Below are positions 9,525 to 23,075 of a DNA stretch of 57,476 nucleotides, piece by piece (within the stretch, counting starts at the first letter, position 1; each line of letters starts with the position of its first letter). This DNA is from Bacteroidales bacterium (lineage in GTDB: Bacteria; Bacteroidota; Bacteroidia; Bacteroidales; UBA932). Below the pieces are notes generated by a model. That model saw only the letters and a program-made list of their open reading frames with translations, did no database searches and was not told the DNA's origin. The position numbers and the translations under genes were made by a program. The DNA lies in the NCBI GenBank assembly GCA_017938925.1, contig JAGBAO010000015.1, positions 1-57,476 on the forward strand, given 5' to 3'.

Positions 9525-10649
9525 ATGAAAATGTTCTTCACTATAATATTGATGGCTGCAATGTCGGCCAATGTCGCTCAGAATAGGGACTCCGGACCAG
9601 AAGCCCAAAAGAGAATGGCGGTGGTGGAGACGTCCACATGCTATATGAGACTGATGCCGGACTATGAGTCGGCGCTTGAGACTCAAGAACTTATGGGAAC
9701 CGTCGTGGAGATTGTCGGGCAGAAGGGATACTGGCGGGAGATTGTTTCGCCGCAGCCATATAAAGCCTGGACGACAGAGAAGACGCTCGTGGAGATGACG
9801 CCGGAGCAGATCAGGGAATATGAAGATGCCCCGAAATATATGTTCACCGGACTGTACGGGCATATATTCACCGAACCTAGCGGGAAGTCTGCGACCATAT
9901 GTGACCTTGTGGGAGGAGATGTGATGAGGGTCGTCATGAAGGGGGCAGGACAGAGTGGTGAGAGGGACGGAGCTGGCAAGCGCGGAGATGCGACCGAAGA
10001 TAAAGCCCGAGGACAGAAGGGCAAGCCTGTCGTGAAGGGGAAATGGGCCAAGGTCATGCTGCCTTCAGGAAAGACCGGCTGGGTGCTCAGGAAAGACGTC
10101 TGTCCATTGGGCGAACTCATAGACATCAGGATGGGAGATGCGGCGGAAGGAAAGGTCAGCCAGGAAAAGATGGAAGATATCATCACCTCGGCACGGCAGC
10201 TTCTCGGAGTTCCGTACCTATGGGGAGGCATGTCAGCCAAAGGAGTGGACTGCAGCGGTCTGGTGAGAATAAGCTGCATCATGAACGGAGTCCTGCTGCC
10301 CCGGAATGCATCTCAGCAGATCAGATGCGGAAAGCCGGTGGAGGTGAATGCGGATCCGGCATTCTGGAGTGAAGAGGCAAGAAGGGACAAGGAGGCCTTC
10401 AGCAGGGAGATGAAAAAGAGAATCACCTCCCTGAAAAGAGGTGATCTTGTGTTCTTCGGCACTCCTGCCACAGCTGAAAAGCCGATGAGGGTGACCCATG
10501 TGGGAATATATCTGGGAAACGGTGAAATCATCCACTCGTCCCATCTGGTCCGCATCAACTCCCTTGATCCGGAAGCGGACAACTACTACGAGAATGCCCA
10601 CCGGCTTATCGGGGGATGCCGGCTGGGGGACTATTGGAGTTCCCATTGA
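9525..10649 (+). CDS. NlpC/P60 peptidoglycan endopeptidase with SH3 domains
   Basis: This secreted 374-residue cell-wall hydrolase begins at the ATG followed by a signal peptide (MKMFFTIILMAAMSANVAQ); an upstream in-frame extension is ignored because it runs through the REP-A repeat. Two bacterial SH3-like segments cover about 35-215. The catalytic NlpC/P60 domain has the Cys in 'GVDCSGLVRI', the His in 'MRVTHVGIYLGNGEIIHSS' and the polar residue further on. The layout matches Bacteroidales enzymes that cut gamma-D-Glu-diamino-acid bonds in muropeptides. A Gly/Lys/Arg/Asp-rich insertion (about 142-165) interrupts the second SH3 segment. The 3' end overlaps the convergent tip adhesin gene by 19 bp. 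Confidence 0.9.
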   Translation: MKMFFTIILMAAMSANVAQNRDSGPEAQKRMAVVETSTCYMRLMPDYESALETQELMGTVVEIVGQKGYWREIVSPQPYKAWTTEKTLVEMTPEQIREYEDAPKYMFTGLYGHIFTEPSGKSATICDLVGGDVMRVVMKGAGQSGERDGAGKRGDATEDKARGQKGKPVVKGKWAKVMLPSGKTGWVLRKDVCPLGELIDIRMGDAAEGKVSQEKMEDIITSARQLLGVPYLWGGMSAKGVDCSGLVRISCIMNGVLLPRNASQQIRCGKPVEVNADPAFWSEEARRDKEAFSREMKKRITSLKRGDLVFFGTPATAEKPMRVTHVGIYLGNGEIIHSSHLVRINSLDPEADNYYENAHRLIGGCRLGDYWSSH

Positions 10650-13600
10650 GCATAGAGGTCAAGGGAAGCCGAAAGGTTCATGACATCACCATTGGCATAT
10701 CGCTTTCCTTTGTTGTCATCTCCGTCTGCACGAGTGTGCCAGCCAAGAAACCGATAACCGGCTCTGTTGATAGTGGCTGGCTGGACGAGCACACTGTTTG
10801 TCGCTGTCACGATATTCTGGACAGCAGTATCCGCACCGTTGAGATATCCTCCGTTACCATGGAAAGTTACAACCACATGGGTGACCTGTCCTCCGTTCAG
10901 AGTCACCATACCCAGTTCGTTGGCTACATCCTCATTGGCGACATAAGCAGCAGTGGTGTTTCCTAGGATTGTTCCGCTGTTGATTTCTATGCTGGCATTA
11001 TGACCCACAACGTAAAGGCCACCACCCTGAAGAAGTGACTTGTTGTGTGAAATCATTGGAGAATCGTCTGCTCCTGAAGTAACACCTACCACCACATCGG
11101 CTTTGGCCCCACCTGACTCGGACATATCCACACACAAGCCTCCGCCGAAACGATCTGCTGTATTGTCCATGATCTCACCAGAGAAGACATCCACGAAAAC
11201 ATCTGAAGTCACTGATGACACATATATTCCTCCTCCACAGCCACCTTTGGACGCATCAATCAAGGCGGTATTGCCAGTTATTGAAGCCGTGCCGCCCTCT
11301 GGCATGATGAAGTTTCCTGTTGCAATGCTCACACCTCCCCCATTGCCTCCTACTGAAATATTATCGGAAATCTCACCTCCTGAAACAGTTACGAGGCCAC
11401 CTTCGAGGTATACAGCGCCACCATCAGAAACAGAGGAACACTCCGCAACTGTTCCTGAGGTCATCGTGAAGGTCGGCACATTTGAAGATGTCTTGAGGAT
11501 ACAGATTGCTCCTCCCTTTCTTCCCTCACAGGAAGTGATGATTCCAGTGCCGCCCAGATTTACTTTTCCGTCCTCCAGATAAATTGCACCTCCGTTATAC
11601 TCAGAGCGACATCCGCTGATCGTTCCTCCTGTCATTGAAAACATAGGTTTTGCCACACCTTTGATATACACAGCGCCACCTGACTCTGCAAAACACTCCT
11701 TGATGACTCCGTCAACCATGGAAAAGATTCCGTCTGACATATATACCGCACCTCCGTTTCTCTGCACATGATAATAATCCGGATCATCGACATCACTGTT
11801 TCTTATCACACCACCGTTCATTTCAAACACAGGCCTATCCTCTTCAAGTCCCGAGCCGGTGTTTTCCATGATGAACTGTGCCTGGATATCTCCACCGCGA
11901 ACATAGATTTTTGCCGTACCAATCTTACCACCGGGGCTGTTCGTTTGTCCACCTCCGATAGAGCCTGTACGGATGACAGGACTACCTTCGATTGTCACAG
12001 TAGCGGAACCACCGTTCAGATTGGCGACAGAGCCGCTTGTACAACCCGTGCCTCCACCGATACCGGCTCCAGGAGGTATTATAACCCCTGGATTCAGACC
12101 ACTTTCTGCCGCCACACTCCTTGCCACCACATGACCACCTGTAATTTTTATGACCGCTCCTCCACCATAGGAATTATAACTGCTGCCTCCGCCTATGGCG
12201 GTTCCTATGGCAGACTGGGCATAGACATTTCCGCCAGTAATCGTAACCGTTCCACTATTGCCATGCTTGGCCTTGGAACCAGCTCCTCCTATGGCTGAAC
12301 TCGGAATATCCCATCTGTTTGCCTTGTTGTATGCATAGACATTACCTCCAGAAATCGTAACTGTTCCTGCTCCACCTTGGCTATTAAAGCCGATACCTCC
12401 TCCGATGGCAGTACCGGTAGTCGATGCTACTGCTGTGATGTCACCGCCCTTTATAGTTATAGTACTATTTCCATTGCCACCGCCACCTATTGCTGAGCAG
12501 TTCTCAGCCTTTGTCGTTCCGGCAAAGACAACCCCTCCCTCGAAGACTATTCCATAGCATTGGTCGCTGGAGTCATTATTGCCTATTGCTGCGCACCAGT
12601 GGTTTGAGTAATAGCCATATTCCCAATCTCCGACTACACTAGCCTGAGAATCAGCCTTGCTCTTCTTATAATCGACATCGGCAACAGTCAGAGAGCCCGT
12701 ACCTGTAAATATCAGCTGACAACCATTATTCTTTACTGTGTTGCTATAATGGATCGCACCGAACCTGTTATCTCCCACGATGTTTATGGAAAGATAAGAA
12801 CCCGTACCGCTAGGTATGAAACCGACTCCACCTTTTGTTCTGCTTACTGATGCCTGTTGAAATCTTGAGTATAGGTTATCTATGGTAAGATTGCACTTTA
12901 TCTCTCCAGCCACGTCTATATAATAAGGAGTATGTGCCCTTCCTACCGAACGCACAGCACCGGCAGTTCCGGCCTCATTGTCCCAGTTCTCTATGACATC
13001 CTCAACCACCTGGTTGTTTGTGATGTAGTCGCTCCACTTCTGCCCGTTAAACTCGACTCTTTCATATTCAGGAATACGACACTTACCCACCCGGAGTTGG
13101 GTTTCCCATCCTGTATTTGCCGCATTCGTGGCGGTCTGTGACTCAGAGGACTGATATACATAATACATATTTCCATCCACATGAGGTCCCTTCACTGCAG
13201 TAGCAACACCGCCGACGTATACATATCCCGAATATCCGGAAGGCTTGATGGAAACATCTCCCGCCGCCAGATCGAAATACTGTACGGTAGAATACTGCAC
13301 GGTTTCGTTCAGAGTGTATGTAATCAGTTTGCCATGGTCCCATCTCACACCACTGAGATCGGCACTGAGGGTCTTTCCGCCGTCATAGGTCAGCGTCAGG
13401 CTTGCATTGGTTCCCAACATCTGAGGAATCATCATATAGATGTCATCACCATCATTTACAATCTCTCCCTCTTTGAAGGATTTTCCCCCCGCAAAAGACA
13501 GAGTAAATGTCTTTTCACCGGAAGCCACCCAATCGGAGGTTCCCAGAGTAAGTGTACCCTCTGTGCAGATGCCCTCCATAACTATCGACTCCACGCTGCA

Positions 13601-14266
13601 TGCAAATCCCATCTTGAAACGCACAGCTGTCAATGCATGCTGGAACTCCAGTGGAACGTTATGGTAGAAGTCTTTCCTCTGCACCTGAGTTACGGCGACA
13701 AGCAGTTCTGTCTGTTTCGAAGGGTCCGTATCGACTTTATAATCTACAGTCGGGATTCCAATGCCGTTATCCGGATTCAGGTCCTTATCCACACCCATAT
13801 CCAGGCCACAAGGAGAAACAGCATATACCCTCATGGTTGTTCCGGCCTCGGAGGCAGCAGATTTCCAGGTCACAGGATCAGCCTCGGCCTCCAGAAAGTA
13901 GTCGCGGAAGACAAACTTCTTTTCCGTCAATTTATCCCAGACTTCCGGACTTGCGGTCTCATCCCACGTATCATAGATATATGCACTGACGCTTGCCTCA
14001 AGCCCGTTCAAAGAGGTCTTAGGGGCAGACTTTGTTTCAGCAGATCCTGAAACAAGAGCCAGATCTTCCTCCTGGACAGACAGGTAGCCGAAACAATAGT
14101 CCTGACATGACTTGACCTGTGGCATCAGGGCTGTCTGGAATGATATGTGGCTGTTTGCAGATGTCTGAGGAGTGCCATCTGCCATTTCATCAATGCATCC
14201 CGTTGCCCACACCGACAGAAGAGTAGTTGTAAGCAAAGCATATATGTGTCTGATATTCATCCTCAT
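10631..14266 (-). CDS. Large fimbrial tip-like lipoprotein: fimbrillin-like, beta-helix, Listeria-Bacteroides repeat
   Basis: This is a 1211-residue lipoprotein, lipobox ATGC with Cys24. Residues of about 40-330 resemble a fimbrillin domain ('YNVPLEFQHALTAVRFKMG' variant, 'YMMIPQML'), like its operon neighbours. From about 450 to 1130 it is rich in short repeats of the type 'GGGGNGNSTITIKGGDI' and 'GGAVYLEGGLVTVSGGEIS', as expected for a right-handed parallel beta-helix adhesin. The last 80 residues ('VTFHGNGG', 'GYRFLGWHTRADG', 'LYAQWELQ') are a Listeria-Bacteroides (InlB B / Flg_new) repeat. It is the last gene of the fimbrial operon, starting 4 nt after the preceding gene, and is the natural candidate for the tip adhesin. 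The ligand is unknown. Confidence 0.8.
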   Translation of the reverse strand: MRMNIRHIYALLTTTLLSVWATGCIDEMADGTPQTSANSHISFQTALMPQVKSCQDYCFGYLSVQEEDLALVSGSAETKSAPKTSLNGLEASVSAYIYDTWDETASPEVWDKLTEKKFVFRDYFLEAEADPVTWKSAASEAGTTMRVYAVSPCGLDMGVDKDLNPDNGIGIPTVDYKVDTDPSKQTELLVAVTQVQRKDFYHNVPLEFQHALTAVRFKMGFACSVESIVMEGICTEGTLTLGTSDWVASGEKTFTLSFAGGKSFKEGEIVNDGDDIYMMIPQMLGTNASLTLTYDGGKTLSADLSGVRWDHGKLITYTLNETVQYSTVQYFDLAAGDVSIKPSGYSGYVYVGGVATAVKGPHVDGNMYYVYQSSESQTATNAANTGWETQLRVGKCRIPEYERVEFNGQKWSDYITNNQVVEDVIENWDNEAGTAGAVRSVGRAHTPYYIDVAGEIKCNLTIDNLYSRFQQASVSRTKGGVGFIPSGTGSYLSINIVGDNRFGAIHYSNTVKNNGCQLIFTGTGSLTVADVDYKKSKADSQASVVGDWEYGYYSNHWCAAIGNNDSSDQCYGIVFEGGVVFAGTTKAENCSAIGGGGNGNSTITIKGGDITAVASTTGTAIGGGIGFNSQGGAGTVTISGGNVYAYNKANRWDIPSSAIGGAGSKAKHGNSGTVTITGGNVYAQSAIGTAIGGGSSYNSYGGGAVIKITGGHVVARSVAAESGLNPGVIIPPGAGIGGGTGCTSGSVANLNGGSATVTIEGSPVIRTGSIGGGQTNSPGGKIGTAKIYVRGGDIQAQFIMENTGSGLEEDRPVFEMNGGVIRNSDVDDPDYYHVQRNGGAVYMSDGIFSMVDGVIKECFAESGGAVYIKGVAKPMFSMTGGTISGCRSEYNGGAIYLEDGKVNLGGTGIITSCEGRKGGAICILKTSSNVPTFTMTSGTVAECSSVSDGGAVYLEGGLVTVSGGEISDNISVGGNGGGVSIATGNFIMPEGGTASITGNTALIDASKGGCGGGIYVSSVTSDVFVDVFSGEIMDNTADRFGGGLCVDMSESGGAKADVVVGVTSGADDSPMISHNKSLLQGGGLYVVGHNASIEINSGTILGNTTAAYVANEDVANELGMVTLNGGQVTHVVVTFHGNGGYLNGADTAVQNIVTATNSVLVQPATINRAGYRFLGWHTRADGDDNKGKRYANGDVMNLSASLDLYAQWELQ

Positions 14267-14270
14267 AACA

Positions 14271-15236
14271 TCATTTCAAATAAAAATTATCATCCTTGTA
14301 CTCCCACGATGCCAAAGAGCATTCTCCCTCTATCACAGAGAACGGGTGGAAGTAAAGTTCTATGACGAACTGTCTGCCGGCTGCATCTGACGGGGAATCC
14401 AGAAGTTCTCCCTCCTTGTCGATCAGAGCGACCTCGATAGTCCTCTCTTCATTCTCAGCCTTGACCTTCAGCGTATAAGACGTTGCCGGCGCGCAAAGGA
14501 CAGAGCCGACCTCAAAAATCGATGTGGTCAATTCATAATCGCCTTCATATACAAGAGGTTCGATGCTGCCGGAGTATGACACCTTGGAATCGGCTGATTC
14601 CGCATCATATAACACTATATCTACCTGTGATTCTGTTTCGATGGAAACCTTCCTGACATTGCCCCAGAATTGAGGCGCCTCTGCATCCACGGCCACAAGA
14701 CACACTTTAAGCCACGTCAGAAGATGGTCATAAGTCTGAACTCCGAAATGGCTGCTCCAGCTGCCTGATATCTGCTGGGAGAACATCACGTCAGTGAAAC
14801 CGTCCAAAGCATCATACGTCGCAGTTCTTCCATCATCGGAAATGTCCCACCCTGTCTTCGGACATAGTCCCACACAATAAACAGGAGCATCATCTGTCGG
14901 GTATTTCAGATTATTTCCCTCCCAAGGGTCAGGATCCTTAGGAACCGCATTCTCATACTTTATGGTCGTGTGACATGGCAGGCACGTAGGAAGAGCCGGG
15001 CTATGCTGATACACTCCGGAGGTCATCGAGAACAGAAGAGCGGCCTCCAGAGGATTGGACGGAGACGGTACGGTACCCTCGAAAGGATGAGCCACCTGTG
15101 TACCTCGTGTCAAGACATCCACCTTGTCAACACATACGGAAAGTCTTATGCTTCCGTCATTCTCGTGCATTTCCAAACCCGTGCAGGCTGAACAGGCCAG
15201 CAGTAAAACGACAATATATGCAAATATCCTATTCAT
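14271..15236 (-). CDS. Fimbrillin-family lipoprotein (minor subunit 3)
   Basis: This 321-residue lipoprotein starts at MNRIFAYIVVLL with lipobox ACSAC (Cys18); the longer reading upstream lies inside the previous gene and has no signal peptide. After the lipobox comes 'SIRLSVCVDKVDVLTRG', a fimbrillin-like entry. 'HLLTWLKVCLVAVDAEAPQFWGNVRKVSI' (about 140-170) matches the same region of the neighbour at 15229-16320 ('HLLTWLRLEI...WGKITDITV'), so the two are paralogues. Its start overlaps the previous stop by 8 nt (ATGAATAG) and the tip gene starts 4 nt after it. It is probably a minor or tip-proximal pilus subunit. Confidence 0.75.
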   Translation of the reverse strand: MNRIFAYIVVLLLACSACTGLEMHENDGSIRLSVCVDKVDVLTRGTQVAHPFEGTVPSPSNPLEAALLFSMTSGVYQHSPALPTCLPCHTTIKYENAVPKDPDPWEGNNLKYPTDDAPVYCVGLCPKTGWDISDDGRTATYDALDGFTDVMFSQQISGSWSSHFGVQTYDHLLTWLKVCLVAVDAEAPQFWGNVRKVSIETESQVDIVLYDAESADSKVSYSGSIEPLVYEGDYELTTSIFEVGSVLCAPATSYTLKVKAENEERTIEVALIDKEGELLDSPSDAAGRQFVIELYFHPFSVIEGECSLASWEYKDDNFYLK

Positions 15237-16320
15237 ATAGATTTCCTCCTGCGACACCTTCCACAATCCAGTCATTGACCACAACACTTGTGGTGATGTT
15301 GTTACCCATCCTGAAGGTAAGCGAAATAGTAAACTGCTTTCCCATGGTACTTCCCTCAAACCACTCATCAGCTGCTGTCTTGAGGTCAACCGGAACCGAT
15401 ATAGGACGGTTCTCGGTTGTTATGTCCAACGTGTACTCGGCAACCCTCTCCAATGAGTGGGCGTCCCTGGCATAGGCTGTCACGGGAGAGCACAGTACGT
15501 ATGCAACCTCTTCCATAGCTAGATAAGGGATCCGTTCTCCTCCCGAAGCAGGATACTCTTCATCAGAGTCGGTAACACGGAAGTCCATATCTGCAGATCC
15601 GGAGAAAGAAACGCATGACGACGGATCATACTGCCTCGTAAGATCCACCGACACCTTGTCCTTTGCTCTGACCGTGATGTCTGTGATCTTTCCCCAGACT
15701 TCAGCAACTTCCTCGCTTTCAGCCTTTATCTCCAGACGCAGCCAGGTCAGGAGATGACGGAAATGAAGGGTAGGCCAGACAGGATTGCCTTCTGAGTCTT
15801 TCTTTCCGTAAGAACCGTCCACCTGAGGAGCAAACATGACATCCTCGTATCCATGGAACAGATAGAAGGCAGACCTTCCATCCTCGGTAGTCCATCCGGA
15901 CTCCGGGGTCATGGCAACGAAATAGATAGGAGGAGTATCCACCTTTGAGTAGATGACCTCGGCGAGCAGCTGTGGCCCTCCGCTCTGAAAATGAGCCTGG
16001 GTATGGTAGGCCACCTCATAAGGCACCCCAGGATTGTTGATCGGATCGTACTGAGTTCCGTCAAGCCTTTTGTCTGCAAACAGTCTTGAAGTCGATGATG
16101 CCCACACCTCCGTTTTCAAAGGACAGTCGTTGGTAGGCATATCAGGTTCGACATCATCATCGTCAGACGGAACATATGGAATCCTTGTCCTGACATCATC
16201 CTGAAGAGATGCAGCGATATAGACTCCGCAATCATCACATGGCGAAGGGTCATCATAGTCTCTGTTGCAAGCTGCAAATGTCAAAGCAGAGAACAGCAAT
16301 ATGTAAAGCGCAGTCTTCAT
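15229..16320 (-). CDS. Fimbrillin-family lipoprotein (minor subunit 2)
   Basis: This 363-residue protein has lipobox FAAC (Cys18) followed by an acidic Cys-containing linker ('NRDYDDPSPCDDCGVYI'). 'HFRHLLTWLRLEIKAES' and 'VWGKITDITVRAKD' align with the next gene, showing a tandem duplication of accessory pilins. The C-terminal strand 'ITTSVVVNDWIVEG' resembles the final strand of fimbrillins, which takes part in strand exchange between subunits of type V pili. It starts 4 nt after the previous gene and overlaps the next by 8 nt. Its exact place in the pilus is inferred. Confidence 0.75.
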   Translation of the reverse strand: MKTALYILLFSALTFAACNRDYDDPSPCDDCGVYIAASLQDDVRTRIPYVPSDDDDVEPDMPTNDCPLKTEVWASSTSRLFADKRLDGTQYDPINNPGVPYEVAYHTQAHFQSGGPQLLAEVIYSKVDTPPIYFVAMTPESGWTTEDGRSAFYLFHGYEDVMFAPQVDGSYGKKDSEGNPVWPTLHFRHLLTWLRLEIKAESEEVAEVWGKITDITVRAKDKVSVDLTRQYDPSSCVSFSGSADMDFRVTDSDEEYPASGGERIPYLAMEEVAYVLCSPVTAYARDAHSLERVAEYTLDITTENRPISVPVDLKTAADEWFEGSTMGKQFTISLTFRMGNNITTSVVVNDWIVEGVAGGNLYE

Positions 16321-16324
16321 CTTC

Positions 16325-17395
16325 CTATTGTACGTCTATTTCCTGTTTATAATCCACCACGTCCCATTCATCGACACGGACATTGAAGAGGATCTCTTCC
16401 TGAGGGTCTCCCAGTTTGATATTGTATGTATATCTCTTGCCTGGCTCCCAACTGGTGGCTGAAGGGCTTGCCACAGCTATCCTCTTTGTCTCCGCTCCGA
16501 TGTCATCTCTTTCATATGTTATCGCAAACTGCACCTCCGAGAGACTCTGAGGCACGACAATGTATGGACCTCCTATCTGAGTGTCGAAGTTAATGTTCTC
16601 TCCCGGCACCGGTTCATTGATTTCAAGAACAAGGTCCGACCTCTCTCCTGAAGTAGTCCAGTTGCCACTGGTGAAGTTTGCTGCAGAATCTCCACCAAAA
16701 TCCACTGTGCTGAACCTGTTGGCGTACGTTCCCTTACCGAATATGTTCTCAAAGGCTATCGTCTTGATGGTCATACGATAAGACTCTTTGAGGATTACCA
16801 CCACAGAAGAGAAAGGATGGACAAATCTCAGTTTGACTCCGTCTGTCCCCTGGGTCGTCGGATTCTGATCGGTGGCATAGGCATATATGAACTCCTGCAT
16901 GCTGTCCTGGAGATTATTCAAAGGCAGATTACAAGAGAAAGAAGGGCCGTCAGCAAGTGTGTGCTCTCCTATCGTCACATAGGTCTTCTCCATATTCTGC
17001 TTATAAGGCATATATGCAAAGAAGTTCAGATCATTGTTCTTCGGCCAGTAGTAATCCACATAGGCGTCGTCTGTAATATCCTCCGGCGTTCCGCCGTCGT
17101 CACGGAACTGCCACTTATCCGTACCGCCTGCGAAGAACTTCACCCATGCATCACTGAAATAGCAGGTGCCTGTTTCACAGACGTAGGCATTGACAGAAAA
17201 GTCTCCGCCTCCGATTTCGGTGTTCTTCAAAGGATCATCCCCATCGAAGACAGTTGCGCCTCTTGTCGATATGAGACTTGTGGCGAAACGGATCCGTTCG
17301 CCACCGGACACAGGCTCCCTGCTGTCCTCCTTGGTGCAGGAAAGACATAGGGCCATGAGCGCTACGGCAAGAAAATATGCAGATATCCGTTTCAT
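16325..17395 (-). CDS. Fimbrillin-family lipoprotein (minor subunit 1)
   Basis: This 356-residue lipoprotein has lipobox LCLSC (Cys20). Hallmarks of the FimA/Mfa-like family are 'RIRFATSLISTRGATVFDGDD' in part, 'DYYWPKNNDLNFFAYMPY' (about 112-130), 'LRFVHPFSSVVVILKES' and the C-terminal 'EPGKRYTYNIKLG' then 'VRVDEWDVVDYKQE'. The same landmarks occur in the pilin upstream at 17451-18587. The gap to that gene is 55 nt and contains a hairpin. The next gene follows after 4 nt. It is likely an accessory pilin co-expressed at a lower level than the first. Confidence 0.82.
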   Translation of the reverse strand: MKRISAYFLAVALMALCLSCTKEDSREPVSGGERIRFATSLISTRGATVFDGDDPLKNTEIGGGDFSVNAYVCETGTCYFSDAWVKFFAGGTDKWQFRDDGGTPEDITDDAYVDYYWPKNNDLNFFAYMPYKQNMEKTYVTIGEHTLADGPSFSCNLPLNNLQDSMQEFIYAYATDQNPTTQGTDGVKLRFVHPFSSVVVILKESYRMTIKTIAFENIFGKGTYANRFSTVDFGGDSAANFTSGNWTTSGERSDLVLEINEPVPGENINFDTQIGGPYIVVPQSLSEVQFAITYERDDIGAETKRIAVASPSATSWEPGKRYTYNIKLGDPQEEILFNVRVDEWDVVDYKQEIDVQ

Positions 17396-17450: not shown

Positions 17451-18587
17451 TTAGAAATTGAAGTCCTGACCATTAGTTGGAACATCAACCCAAGGAGCTA
17501 CGTATGGCTCGAAGTAGATGGTGTCAAGACCGATGATGATGTTGTAGATGTAGCGCTTGCCCATCTCCCAACTGCCTATGGCAGCTGTCTGGAGATCTTT
17601 CTCAATCACCTGAACAAGCTGTTCGCTACCTGTACCATTGTTAGCAAGAGTATAAGTGACCTTGAGCTTGATTCCTGAGAGATTCTGAGGAAGAAGGATG
17701 AAGTCTGTTGCACGGAGGCCGTCGGCAGCTGCAGGCGCAGTCTTGGAATGCGAGGCAGTCCAATAAGCTTCTGTGTCAACATCATAATTAAGATTATCAG
17801 AGTTATCCACGAGGTAATTCTTAGGCTCAGCCGCCGCTGTCCATGATGCTGCAGTTGTTGGAGCATTATTTTCATCTTTAAGATTCTGGTCGAAGGAAGC
17901 CTTTGAGCCCACGTTGAGAAGTTCGATCTTGTTAAGAGTGATCTTGGTGCTGCCGCTGTAGTCTGCAAGAGTCTTCACTGTAAAGGCTACAGAAGAAAGA
18001 GCATGCTTGAATGACAGGTGAACTCCCTTATAGATGTCAGCAGTCACTCCTGCCTCAGCGCCCGTTCCTTCTGATCCCACTTCATTATCATCGACAGCCT
18101 TCTTGTTGTATGCTCTCTCACTGAAAAGAAGATCCACCTGGTCAGAGACAGTCTGTGTGACCTCAAAGTCAGTGAAAGTGATTCCGCTTTCAGTTGCAGC
18201 TGCTTCTGCCTTTCCCGCAGGAGCATAAGCGATGAAGGTGAGGGAACCGTTCTTTGGCCAGTAGTAGTTCTGAGCCGGTGCCCAGGTGTTGTCACTATAA
18301 CTTACTGTCACCTCGTTCATATAGGTCTTACCTTCTGTCCAGGTAGAATATGTTCCATTTGTAACATCCGCTGGATCTACGTAATACTTCGCCCACACAG
18401 CAAAATCGTAAGCAGTGCCGGTAGGATAGTTGTTCCACACCTCGTTGGTTGCCTTTGTGTTGAGGCCGACAACCGGTGCAGCAAATGTGATGGCCTGCTG
18501 ATCAGTAACTGAAGGAGCCGGCTCGTTCTTGGTGCAGCCTGCAAGCGCTACGCCTGCAATCGCTGCGATGAAAAATAACTTTTTCAT
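17451..18587 (-). CDS. Fimbrillin-family lipoprotein (probable major pilin)
   Basis: This 378-residue lipoprotein has lipobox ALAGC (Cys18) and the fimbrillin signature: 'ITFAAPVVGLNTKA' after the leader, 'NYYWPKNGSLTFIAYAPAG' (about 108-126), 'GVHLSFKHALSSVAFTVK' (about 190-207), 'LLPQNLSGIKLKVTYT' and 'EMGKRYIYNIIIGLDTIYF'. It ends 'APWVDVPTNGQDFNF'. In type V pili the lipidated precursor is cut by an Arg- or Lys-specific protease and the freed groove takes the next subunit's C-terminal strand. It is the first pilin after the DUF3575/DUF5119 genes and is followed by a hairpin, which suggests it is the most expressed, shaft-forming subunit. That rank is an inference. Confidence 0.85.
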   Translation of the reverse strand: MKKLFFIAAIAGVALAGCTKNEPAPSVTDQQAITFAAPVVGLNTKATNEVWNNYPTGTAYDFAVWAKYYVDPADVTNGTYSTWTEGKTYMNEVTVSYSDNTWAPAQNYYWPKNGSLTFIAYAPAGKAEAAATESGITFTDFEVTQTVSDQVDLLFSERAYNKKAVDDNEVGSEGTGAEAGVTADIYKGVHLSFKHALSSVAFTVKTLADYSGSTKITLNKIELLNVGSKASFDQNLKDENNAPTTAASWTAAAEPKNYLVDNSDNLNYDVDTEAYWTASHSKTAPAAADGLRATDFILLPQNLSGIKLKVTYTLANNGTGSEQLVQVIEKDLQTAAIGSWEMGKRYIYNIIIGLDTIYFEPYVAPWVDVPTNGQDFNF

Positions 18588-18647: not shown

Positions 18648-19721
18648 TTAAATTATTACATCTGACTCAACATCCTGCCAATCGTCCAATCCAGGATCGA
18701 ATCCGCCGCCTCCTACCTTTGGAGGTTCTGGTATCTCTATAGTATGATCTATCAGCAGCCACCTGTTCTCTTGTGCTTCCTTTGTGGCGAACACATCAGT
18801 GATATCCAGAGTCTCACTATATGGGTCTCCATACACCGTCAGGAAATCGAATGTTACCTCCAGATGGTTCTGCTGGGCCGGAATCTTTCCAAAAGTGTTG
18901 AACGTTGTATATACGGTCACAGTACCCTCGTCTCCCTTGACCATTCCAGATGCCGGTCCCTGTCCGGGGAACATATCGAAATATACCGTCACAGGGTCTT
19001 CTTCGTCCATTTTTCCGTCTATCAGCCAGCCGGAACCGGCTACTCCCGTGAGCAAACCTACGGAAGATGAGGCGAACTCAAGCCCCTTTACCCTTACCTG
19101 CAGGTAGTATGACTGTACCATACTCTCTGCCCTGAAATACTTCCCCTCCGGTGTCTTGAGAGTGTCAACAAAGTCCACATAGGGCACGAGGACATCAGGA
19201 CAGGCGACGCGGAACATGTGATCCGGGTCATACACAACCTTGTCAAAGCCCTGGTTCTTCTGCTTTGTAGAATTACGCCTGGAGCGGCTTGGAATATTAG
19301 ACTTAAGGTGGGACGCGATTTCTCCCGTAAAGGCCTTTGCATCAAAATGATTATTGATATCCTTCACCTGGGTGGTTTCAACATCAAAATTGTAAACCAT
19401 AAGTGAATATATACCAGGGGCTGCTACAATATAACCGTCATAATACCTCCCATTTTCGTCCATTCCCATATTTCGCAGGAAGCGCTCGGCCTTTGCGGCT
19501 CCAGTTTCCGGGTCTGCAAGAGTGACTCTCAGAATGCCCGGAGCATTGTACGTCGGTCTCCTGTTGCTTTCATTGTAGAATCCTGTGGTCACGTTCGGAA
19601 TCACTTCATCTATGTACACCCTGATATAGTGGGTATTGGACATCTCCAGCAAAGGTCTCCTCTCGCACGACAAAGTCGTAAACAGCAGGCTAAGGGCAAG
19701 TATGTGAATCAGTTTCCTCAT
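18648..19721 (-). CDS. DUF5119 lipoprotein of the fimbrial operon
   Basis: This 357-residue lipoprotein has lipobox TLSC (Cys19). Residues of about 25-130 ('RPLLEMSNTHYIRVYIDE', 'PGIYSLMVYNFDVETTQV') match DUF5119 proteins, which resemble FimB/Mfa2 pilus anchors in their position and lipidation. The C-terminus is Gly/Pro/Asp-rich ('GGGGFDPGLDDWQDVESDV' in part). Its start overlaps the DUF3575 gene stop by 4 nt (ATGA). A 60-nt AT-rich gap separates it from the first pilin. By context it probably anchors or assembles the pilus at the outer membrane, but the biochemistry of this family is not known to me. Confidence 0.78.
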   Translation of the reverse strand: MRKLIHILALSLLFTTLSCERRPLLEMSNTHYIRVYIDEVIPNVTTGFYNESNRRPTYNAPGILRVTLADPETGAAKAERFLRNMGMDENGRYYDGYIVAAPGIYSLMVYNFDVETTQVKDINNHFDAKAFTGEIASHLKSNIPSRSRRNSTKQKNQGFDKVVYDPDHMFRVACPDVLVPYVDFVDTLKTPEGKYFRAESMVQSYYLQVRVKGLEFASSSVGLLTGVAGSGWLIDGKMDEEDPVTVYFDMFPGQGPASGMVKGDEGTVTVYTTFNTFGKIPAQQNHLEVTFDFLTVYGDPYSETLDITDVFATKEAQENRWLLIDHTIEIPEPPKVGGGGFDPGLDDWQDVESDVII

Positions 19722-21025
19722 CTTGCACCTCCTTTTGTCTTGAATGTGGCCCTGATCGGAATCGTCAGGCTTACTTCAGCCTTCGTAGGTCCGAAATAGT
19801 GAAGGGTTCCCGCATTGTTCTTGTCCTTGATCAGGATCTGCCAGTCGTCGGTAGGGATGTAATGCTGGTACGGGACACGCGCATAGCCTGCAGTTATTGA
19901 AAACTCAAGATTAAGGTGCTTGCTTATCGGCATTGAGTAACCGTATGTCAGGCCGGCGCTCATGAATTCAAACTGATAGCAACCGAAGTCTCTGCCCCAC
20001 TGGATATCGGACTTTCCTCCCCATACGTTAAGTCCGAGGAAATGGCCCACAAGGGCATCTCGAAGCTTTCTGTCGCCGGTATTCTCGCTTGTGCGCGGAG
20101 CAAACCACCAGCGAAACTCTCCTCCGAGAGAGAGGAACTGGAGGCAGTATTTATTGCTGCGGGCCAACCACCATGGGGTGTGCTGCTCGAACTGAAGGGA
20201 AAGATGCTTGTTGAATGGTACCTCAATCGAATAGTTCAATGCAGTCACCGCATCATAGAGCAGATTGGTCTTGAGTCCCACCACAGTCTTCTGCTTCTTA
20301 AACACCGGCTTCTCCGGTATGATGCGGGTGAAGGTGGAGTCCTGAGGCATCACCATCGGGAGGTTCGGGTCTGTGATCGGATTCACCGGCTCGATGATCT
20401 TCTTCCATACGCTGATCCATGTGGCGGCACGCAGTTCCGGCATATATCTGCGGATAAGGAAACTCCAAGTATAACCTCCGTCGAGTTGCTTGAGCCGCCA
20501 TTTTCTGGTTTCATCACCGATTCCCTTCTCCTTCAGGATGGATATTACCTTGTCGCGGTCGTGACGGTGATACTTCTCCTCCACGAGACGGAGGAGACCC
20601 GGCCAGTTTTCTGCCAGCGGACTTATCCTGATCTTCTCGGAATTGAATCGGGAGGAATCCGGGCTATGTTCCAGGAGGAACCTCTTTGCCGCCTTGGCTC
20701 GCTCTATCGAAAGGTATTTATTGAACCTGTATGATCCCTCGGGTGATGCCCAAGCATAGATGACGATGCTATCGATCTTCGGGGAAGTCGAAATGTATCT
20801 GAGAATATGCCTTATCTGGCTCGGATTGTCGAGATAGGTGGTGTCGATGTCAGTCTTGTTGACCCGGTAATATATTGCAAACTCCTCAACGACCATTCCG
20901 CTGTGGATGGAATCCACTCTGACAGCAGCGTCGCGCCCCTGCGCGCAAGCGAAAGAATTTTGCCCTGACAGAACCAGGACAAAACAAAGAATCGCAACAA
21001 TGGGGAGCTTCCTGTACATCTTCAT
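19718..21025 (-). CDS. DUF3575 protein with OmpA-like N-terminal half
   Basis: The ATG at 21025 gives 435 residues with a signal peptide (ILCFVLVLSGQNSFACAQ). A longer TTG-initiated reading is rejected because it would begin inside the -7 promoter box. Residues of about 45-130 look like an OmpA/MotB-type peptidoglycan-associated domain ('IDSIVIYAWASPEGSYRFNK', 'LSIERAKAAKRFLLEHSPD'). Residues of about 250-435 are a DUF3575 outer-membrane barrel ('GLKTNLLYDAVTALNYSIEV', 'LSLGGEFRWWF'). DUF3575 proteins regularly open fimbrillin operons of Bacteroidales and may form the envelope platform. It is the first gene of the operon, behind a promoter with a G8 run in its spacer. Confidence 0.8.
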   Translation of the reverse strand: MKMYRKLPIVAILCFVLVLSGQNSFACAQGRDAAVRVDSIHSGMVVEEFAIYYRVNKTDIDTTYLDNPSQIRHILRYISTSPKIDSIVIYAWASPEGSYRFNKYLSIERAKAAKRFLLEHSPDSSRFNSEKIRISPLAENWPGLLRLVEEKYHRHDRDKVISILKEKGIGDETRKWRLKQLDGGYTWSFLIRRYMPELRAATWISVWKKIIEPVNPITDPNLPMVMPQDSTFTRIIPEKPVFKKQKTVVGLKTNLLYDAVTALNYSIEVPFNKHLSLQFEQHTPWWLARSNKYCLQFLSLGGEFRWWFAPRTSENTGDRKLRDALVGHFLGLNVWGGKSDIQWGRDFGCYQFEFMSAGLTYGYSMPISKHLNLEFSITAGYARVPYQHYIPTDDWQILIKDKNNAGTLHYFGPTKAEVSLTIPIRATFKTKGGAR

Positions 21026-21058: not shown

Positions 21059-21089
21059 CAAATATACTTACCCCCCCCGGGAAAAACAA
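21059..21089 (-). promoter_or_regulatory. Fimbrial operon promoter with G8/C8 spacer tract
   Basis: On the minus strand TTG (21087-21089) is followed by 20 nt and TATATTTG (21059-21066), a full TTG-N20-TAnnTTTG match. The spacer contains eight consecutive G residues (plus-strand C8 at 21071-21078). The leader to the first ATG is about 25-30 nt. Slippage in the run would change the spacer length; the clear promoters elsewhere in this window use 19 or 20. Confidence 0.65.
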
Positions 21090-21176: not shown

Positions 21177-21452
21177 ATGAATCTTAGAGTTTTCAAGAAA
21201 GACATCGAGTTCTTCATCGGCGAGTTCATCGAGGATTGCGAGCTTTTCGTTCTCCTCAACCCTCATAAGGACGCGGAGAAGATTGACCAGATAATCGAGG
21301 AGGCTGTTGACCTCTACAACGACCTCAAGCAGAAGGCCGCTCATCCGGAAGGAAACAAGAAGGCTTACTACACAGGTCTCACAAAGGCTATGTTCGAGAA
21401 GCTCGACGAGCTTTCAGAGAAGCTCAGCACAGTTGTAGCTGCTGAGGCATAA
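21177..21452 (+). CDS. Conserved short helical protein, unknown function
   Basis: This is a 91-residue acidic cytoplasmic protein with no signal peptide. It begins 'MNLRVFKKDIEFFIGEFIED', continues as predicted helices ('IDQIIEEAVDLYNDLKQKAA') and ends in an Ala-rich tail. I recognise it as the type of small protein conserved in Bacteroidales but know no function. The inner ATG is chosen because it follows a TATCTTTG box by 40 bp and starts the conserved-looking part. A strong terminator hairpin follows at 21473. It is a single-gene unit divergent from the fimbrial operon. Confidence 0.75.
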   Translation: MNLRVFKKDIEFFIGEFIEDCELFVLLNPHKDAEKIDQIIEEAVDLYNDLKQKAAHPEGNKKAYYTGLTKAMFEKLDELSEKLSTVVAAEA

Positions 21453-22927: not shown

Positions 22928-23075
22928 GGAATGATGCAGGGGATGACGTGAGGGGATGTGCTGGAAATGATGCAGGGATGACGTGAGGGGATGTGAGGGG
23001 ATGTGAGGGGATGTGAGGGGATGTGAGGGGATGTGTGGGATGTGTGGGATGTGTGGGATGTGTGGGATGTGTGGG
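22928..23075 (+). repeat. Minisatellite of 10-bp and 9-bp units
   Basis: Two imperfect 33-bp units (22928-22960 and 22963-22995) contain GGAATGATGCAGG. They run into a series of ATGTGAGGGG (10 bp, four exact copies at 22991-23030 after one ACGTGAGGGG), then five exact copies of ATGTGTGGG (9 bp, 23031-23075). All reading frames through it give only His/Pro/Thr/Ser repeats. It lies between RAYT-B and the downstream REP-B block. Confidence 0.9.

Follow-up and report, generated by a model that had tools for sequence, protein, structure and literature searches.

The operon and its promoter

The window, by which we mean the whole 57,476-base stretch of DNA analysed, has seven open reading frames on the minus strand, running from 21025 down to 10631, and DUF3575, DUF5119 or Mfa_like_1 scored above the Pfam cut-off in five of the seven (Mfa_like_1 above the cut-off in three and below it in one). 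The lead gene (19718-21025, 435 aa) encodes a predicted outer-membrane protein of OmpA-like plus DUF3575 type (DUF3575, E 1.1e-30; OmpA, 24.7 bits, below the cut-off of 27.2). It is followed on the same strand by a DUF5119 protein (18648-19721, 357 aa), two fimbrillin-like Mfa_like_1 proteins (17451-18587, 378 aa, and 16325-17395, 356 aa), a probable fimbrillin-like protein (15229-16320, 363 aa; Mfa_like_1 23.2 bits, below the cut-off of 27), a frame without a Pfam match (14271-15239, 322 aa as searched, the same frame also opening at an earlier TTG), and a large surface protein with Mfa_like_1 and a Flg_new repeat (10631-14266, 1211 aa), which is possibly the tip adhesin. Together, the gene set is a predicted Bacteroidales fimbrillin (type V-like) pilus operon, and the seven-gene pilus operon of the earlier note was recovered by Pfam as seven same-strand frames with fimbrillin-like subunits and a DUF3575 lead gene. 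A divergent small gene on the plus strand (21177-21452, 91 aa, no Pfam family) has a common intergenic region with the operon; its start is conserved across the genus, and most of the genomes compared within the genus have a match to its DNA. A tandem repeat with a unit of 9-10 bp and about 9.5 copies lies at 22983-23075.

Read on the minus strand, 21089-21059 is TTGTTTTTCCCGGGGGGGGTAAGTATATTTG, a TTG-N20-TATATTTG layout with a run of eight G in the spacer. The TTG (21087-21089) is a candidate -33 element, whose context ATTG falls short of a full TTTG, and TATATTTG (21059-21066), 20 nt from the TTG, is a -7 box of the Bacteroidota TAnnTTTG type, a consensus quoted in a passage of PMC7366714. 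The proposed slippage site, G8 on the minus strand and C8 on the plus strand, occupies 21071-21078 (21078-21071 along the minus strand), and the ATG of the lead gene follows at 21025, 45 nt 3' of the tract. The earlier description of this tract and its 20 nt spacer before the DUF3575 gene was thus exact. All three frames contain a stop codon between the tract and the ATG (read by eye), so that a switch at this promoter would be transcriptional and not translational. As far as the letters themselves can tell, the homopolymer lies between two core promoter elements, as in a spacer switch, and in a position where a change of length should alter expression, given the promoter-like spacer and the spacing peak of the genome.

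A strict search of the 2.67 Mb genome for TTG-N8-G8-N4-TANNTTTG gave this one site, and the G8 tract is the sole G or C run of at least 7 in the window. A first-order Markov model predicts about 1.2 runs of at least 8 per window, under which one G8 is unremarkable, but the real run counts drop much faster with length (G and C runs of length 5: 24; 6: 2; 7: 0; 8: 1). The window has 5 copies of TATATTTG, where 0.95 would be expected. No similar DNA was found among phage records.

Promoter spacing in the genome

The pattern TTTG-N14..26-TANNTTTG has 228 sites genome-wide, compared with 68 for the reversed control. Among the 100 sites listed of these 228 (contigs 1-12), a spacer of 19 nt occurs 29 times and one of 20 nt 17 times, followed by 21 nt (7), 22 nt (6) and 18 nt (5), while the outer bins (14-17 and 23-26) average about 4.5 sites. 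With the peak at 19 and 20 nt, a single slipped base should matter: judging from this histogram, a one-base change would shift the window promoter (N20) either to the commonest spacing or to a near-background one. In the window, nine TANNTTTG boxes have a TTG 17-23 nt upstream, and their spacers agree with the genome-wide histogram. The earlier note had put the other clear promoters of the window at 19 or 20 nt, and this roughly holds: the spacer is 19 at four boxes (33365, 53041, 56066 and 57223, the last also 23), 20 at two (the G8 promoter and 6753 on the minus strand), and 18, 22 and 23 at the remaining three. For B. thetaiotaomicron, the -33/-7 spacer is described as variable in length in a passage of PMC7366714.

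Tracts at homologous lead genes

Thirty lead-gene loci were taken from 101 genomes of the genus and six from GTDB genomes (MAGs named Alistipes sp. or Bacteroidales bacterium), giving 36 loci with no near-duplicate pair. The start zone was defined as 250 bases before to 150 bases after the start of the open frame and the first ATG. G or C runs of at least 8 numbered 15 in 15,981 bp of start zones and 5 in the remaining 154,314 bp, a 29-fold higher density around the lead-gene starts (binomial p 4e-12); the rule was applied blindly and put the signal-peptide tract of L138 under elsewhere. The claim that the tract is enriched at this locus beyond chance was therefore upheld among the 36 homologous loci, yet only 12 of them, the window's own included, have such a run in the start zone and 24 have none. 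A sense-strand G run is present in 9 of the 36; the runs of L123, L128 and L129 are all of C. The start-zone tracts of the relatives are G8-G10 and lie in promoters and near signal peptides. Among the named homologues, the only run of L149 is a G7 adjoining the ATG and that of L150 an internal G8, and L153 has none. Forty further hits from the genus list, among them six short sequences of 170-1,444 bases and some whose match is confined to the OmpA or to the DUF3575 part, gave no run of at least 7 (0/40), and poly-G as a trait of all DUF3575/OmpA genes was thus not borne out.

Ten DUF3575 promoter tracts were compared, namely G8 in the window and L130 and G9 in L120, L146, L151, L152, L154, L159, L172 and L015; L159, L172 and L015 are outside the 36 loci, and the tracts of L159 and L172 turned up without the gene as query. 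The gap from the tract to the -7 box is 4 nt in the window and 13, 13, 21, 22, 22, 23, 31, 42 and 54 nt in the others. The tract is inside a TTG-to-box spacer of 17-23 nt in two of the ten only (window and L120); it is upstream of the TTG in L015, L151 and L154, and in the other five (L130, L146, L152, L159 and L172) the box is not preceded by a TTG at 17-23 nt.

Coding tracts near the signal peptide were found in five loci, with the frame open in L138, L152 and L154 and split in L142 and L151; these states, 3/5 open and 2/5 split, are from a comparison across species with one genome for each. L151, L152 and L154 carry both a promoter tract and a coding tract. DUF5119 and Mfa_like_1 genes are downstream in L149, L151 and L152, and DUF5119 alone in L154. 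The scan of GTDB contigs gave no second genome of the same species, the best match having 63% identity (near records possibly omitted). Enrichment near the starts and some split frames are, on the face of the sequences, the look of slippage contingency loci.

G-tract promoters found without the gene as query

A search of 61 genomes for G8 followed by TANNTTTG within 28 nt gave 20 hits at 15 distinct tracts, spread over 9 of the genomes, and the reversed control gave 4 hits. Some overlap open reading frames: L158 is inside one, L172 is at the end of a transporter frame, and L170 is in an antisense frame. Ten downstream frames were searched with Pfam, with matches to DUF3575 in two (L159 and L172), SusC-type receptor in one, M16 peptidase in one, metallophosphatase in one and galactokinase-like in one, fn3-like matches below cut-off in two and no match in two; the window promoter is a further DUF3575 case beside these ten. 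Genome G010 has three look-alike promoters with G8, G8 and G9 and spacers of 21-22, off the optimum. Among ten G-tract promoters examined, no TTG stands 17-23 nt upstream of the box in L159, L160 and L161, and the tract is in or at the edge of an 18-22 nt TTG-to-box spacer in L156, L162, L163, L167, L168, L170 and the window. Genome G018 was rejected as a poly-G-rich extreme, since three runs, two of 17 bases and one of 37, account for 47 of its 54 G9 hits; these long runs are on contigs 1 and 57, two of them at the contig start and that of contig 57 from the first base, and the runs of 17 and 37 bases are most likely assembly artefacts.

Length classes of G runs in the genome

Exact G runs on both strands of the genome number 55 of length 6, 1 of length 7, 21 of length 8 and 6 of length 9. 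Run lengths are thus not geometric, with a deficit of G7 and an excess of G8-G9 under assumed decay ratios of 0.1-0.25. The 28 runs of at least 7 fall into two classes, A with 15 sites and B with 13 tracts.

Class A consists of (A/T)GGGGGGGGCAG at 15 sites in 14 distinct contexts (L002, L004, L006/L020, L013, L018, L029, L031, L058:1438, L059, L060, L061, L065, L066 and L067) and takes up 15 of the 21 exact-8 runs. All 15 are exactly G8, and none interrupts the open frame around it; the sites occur on either gene strand and in each of the three frames. The genes with a Pfam match are SusC-type receptors, Reg_prop regulators, sigma factors, a LacI regulator and a FAD oxidoreductase; the Pfam search gave no match for L013, L031 and L067 and none above cut-off for L029. 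L006 and L020 are two copies of a sigma-factor region in one assembly, with the same G8CAG tract and flanks. GGGGGGGGCAG occurs 15 times in the window's genome against 0 for the reversed control and 19 against 10 times in the other 60 genomes of the genus; the order sample, with 294 other genomes, has 88 against 21 (summed by hand). An origin of the site by G6 insertion was rejected for the FAD oxidoreductase L059, one of the 14 distinct contexts and the only one checked: there was no gap within the site in the 16 matches listed, and L113 and L114 are gapped three to four columns before it. Class A tracts are apparently fixed in length and their variability is doubtful, and we set this G8CAG class apart and did not count it as support for a slippage switch.

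Class B (one G7, six G8 and six G9) differs in length from class A (Fisher p 0.005). Its promoter members are the window promoter, that of the second DUF3575 gene L015, and L064 (= L168), in which a G9 lies within the spacer of a TTTG-N19-TATATTTG promoter of the same genome. Further members are L062, the SusC gene L025, L011, L063 and the G7 of L058. A D12-class adenine DNA methyltransferase has C9 in its coding sequence with the frame open (L008:1501-1509) and is, by its sequence, a candidate phase-variable methyltransferase. Two small peptide frames have G9 (L022:1501-1509 and L068:1525-1533); their products have a common EGV-(M/L)-C-(F/A)-SF motif by eye, in L022 off the start frame. The frame appears split at the G8 of an HD-domain protein (L027:1501-1508), where only the downstream piece has a match, to HD from position 20 onward, and also in a DeoR-family regulator with G9 (L058:7036-7044), where the Pfam match ends at 108 of 160.

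Interpretation and alternatives

We predict, with a probability of about 0.6, that the G8 tract is a simple-sequence contingency element which would tune the pilus-operon promoter by slippage, through the -33/-7 spacing. Slipped-strand mispairing at replication would add or remove a G, the -33/-7 distance (20 nt as assembled, commonest 19) would be altered, and transcription of the whole operon would move from a stronger state to a weaker one or back. The tracts that this lead gene carries in related species lie in its promoter, in the signal-peptide region or at both places. We infer slippage in living populations, an effect on expression, heterogeneous expression and an adhesion phenotype. 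The slippage switch proposed in the earlier note agrees with the constrained promoter spacing and with the homologues' tracts near the start, but the placement in the spacer was found in only 2/10 DUF3575 promoters. Spacer switching may apply to the window promoter, and the property common to the homologues would be promoter-proximal tuning.

The position of the tract differs among the homologues, and therefore a serious, if unlikely, alternative is that a variable tract acts as a graded rheostat, by DNA bending or helical phasing to upstream elements and independently of the -33/-7 distance. This would suit the 7/10 DUF3575 promoters in which 21-54 nt separate the tract from the -7 box, so that it is level with the -33 element or further upstream, and PMC4081817 describes such a mechanism for the sabA T-tract of Helicobacter pylori; the rheostat is opposed by the tracts in or at the edge of the 18-22 nt spacer in the window promoter and the six others named above, and by the constrained promoter spacing in its own genome. 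Improbable is a fixed regulatory or structural feature, such as a protein-binding site, with no biologically relevant slippage. It would be in keeping with the genome's own (A/T)GGGGGGGGCAG class, 15/15 exactly 8 with open frames, but a binding site does not explain the homologues' tracts in signal-peptide codons, 2/5 of them frame-splitting. The one G8 in 57 kb, unremarkable under the first-order Markov model, and the 24/36 homologous loci without a tract near the start would fit a chance homopolymer or neutral drift, a reading that we hold very improbable in view of the 29-fold density near lead-gene starts and of the G7 deficit and G8-G9 excess. An assembly or sequencing artefact, to which the long runs of G018 lend a precedent, deserves almost no weight, for the window tract is mid-contig between open genes and similar tracts recur in separately named MAGs. 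Equally hard to credit is phase variation of the promoter by DNA inversion, the usual mode of the order, by which surface loci of Bacteroidales, those for fimbrillins included, are controlled (parts of PMC12632263 and PMC11892184): 20700-21500 has no flanking inverted repeats suited to an invertible promoter, and holds one weak 15-nt, 87% inverted pair across the promoter with both arms coding and a second pair that is a palindrome beside the promoter.

Beyond the operon, we give even odds to genome-wide, Campylobacter-like poly-G phase variation in this genus, including double control of some pilus lead genes. Both promoters and signal-peptide codons would carry tracts, the targets being pilus operons, SusC-type receptors, genes for small peptides, regulators and a DNA methyltransferase, and L151, L152 and L154 would combine promoter tuning with a translational on/off switch.

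Comparison with known systems

Invertible promoters of capsule, SusC and fimbrillin loci in Bacteroidales, as described in portions of PMC12632263 and PMC11892184, are from the same order and have the same target classes; they differ in that a recombinase inverts a segment there, whereas no suitable inverted repeats are present here. Bacteroides phase variation is treated as inversion in passages of two reviews from 2025, one on phase variation and one on Bacteroidales, and the terms slipp, homopolymer and frameshift are absent from the latter. No paper on homopolymer phase variation in Bacteroidales, pili included, was identified by title or beginning of abstract among the matches listed in the open-licence literature. 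In Bacteroides fragilis, one additional C in a run of four prompted speculation about slippage in a polysaccharide locus (a passage of PMC3090145).

Campylobacter jejuni NCTC11168 has 29 poly-G/poly-C loci with tracts of at least 7 (a passage of PMC4965091), similar to the 28 runs of at least 7 here and with overlapping lengths (G8-G9 here, G8-G12 there), but 15 of the 28 runs here belong to the separate G8CAG class of doubtful variability. Helicobacter pylori sabA (part of PMC4081817) resembles the present locus in having a promoter-proximal homopolymer at an adhesin gene, and the tracts of several homologues, at or upstream of the -33 element, look similarly placed; it is a T-tract there and a G tract here, and the effect was demonstrated by experiment there and is predicted here.

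If the pili and receptors of uncultured gut Bacteroidales switch by slippage, inversion-based surveys would overlook such switching. Moreover, the heterogeneity of populations could then be counted as tract lengths in existing metagenome reads.

At fim of Bordetella pertussis and in Neisseria, poly-C or poly-G lies between or beside promoter elements. The likeness is in a promoter homopolymer at an adhesin or outer-membrane gene, in which a one-base change alters the spacing, while the phylum and the type of promoter are different, with -33 TTG/TTTG, -7 TAnnTTTG and a commonest spacing of 19-20 here. The spacer layout of the Bordetella fim type is that of the window promoter and of one of the nine other DUF3575 promoter tracts (L120).
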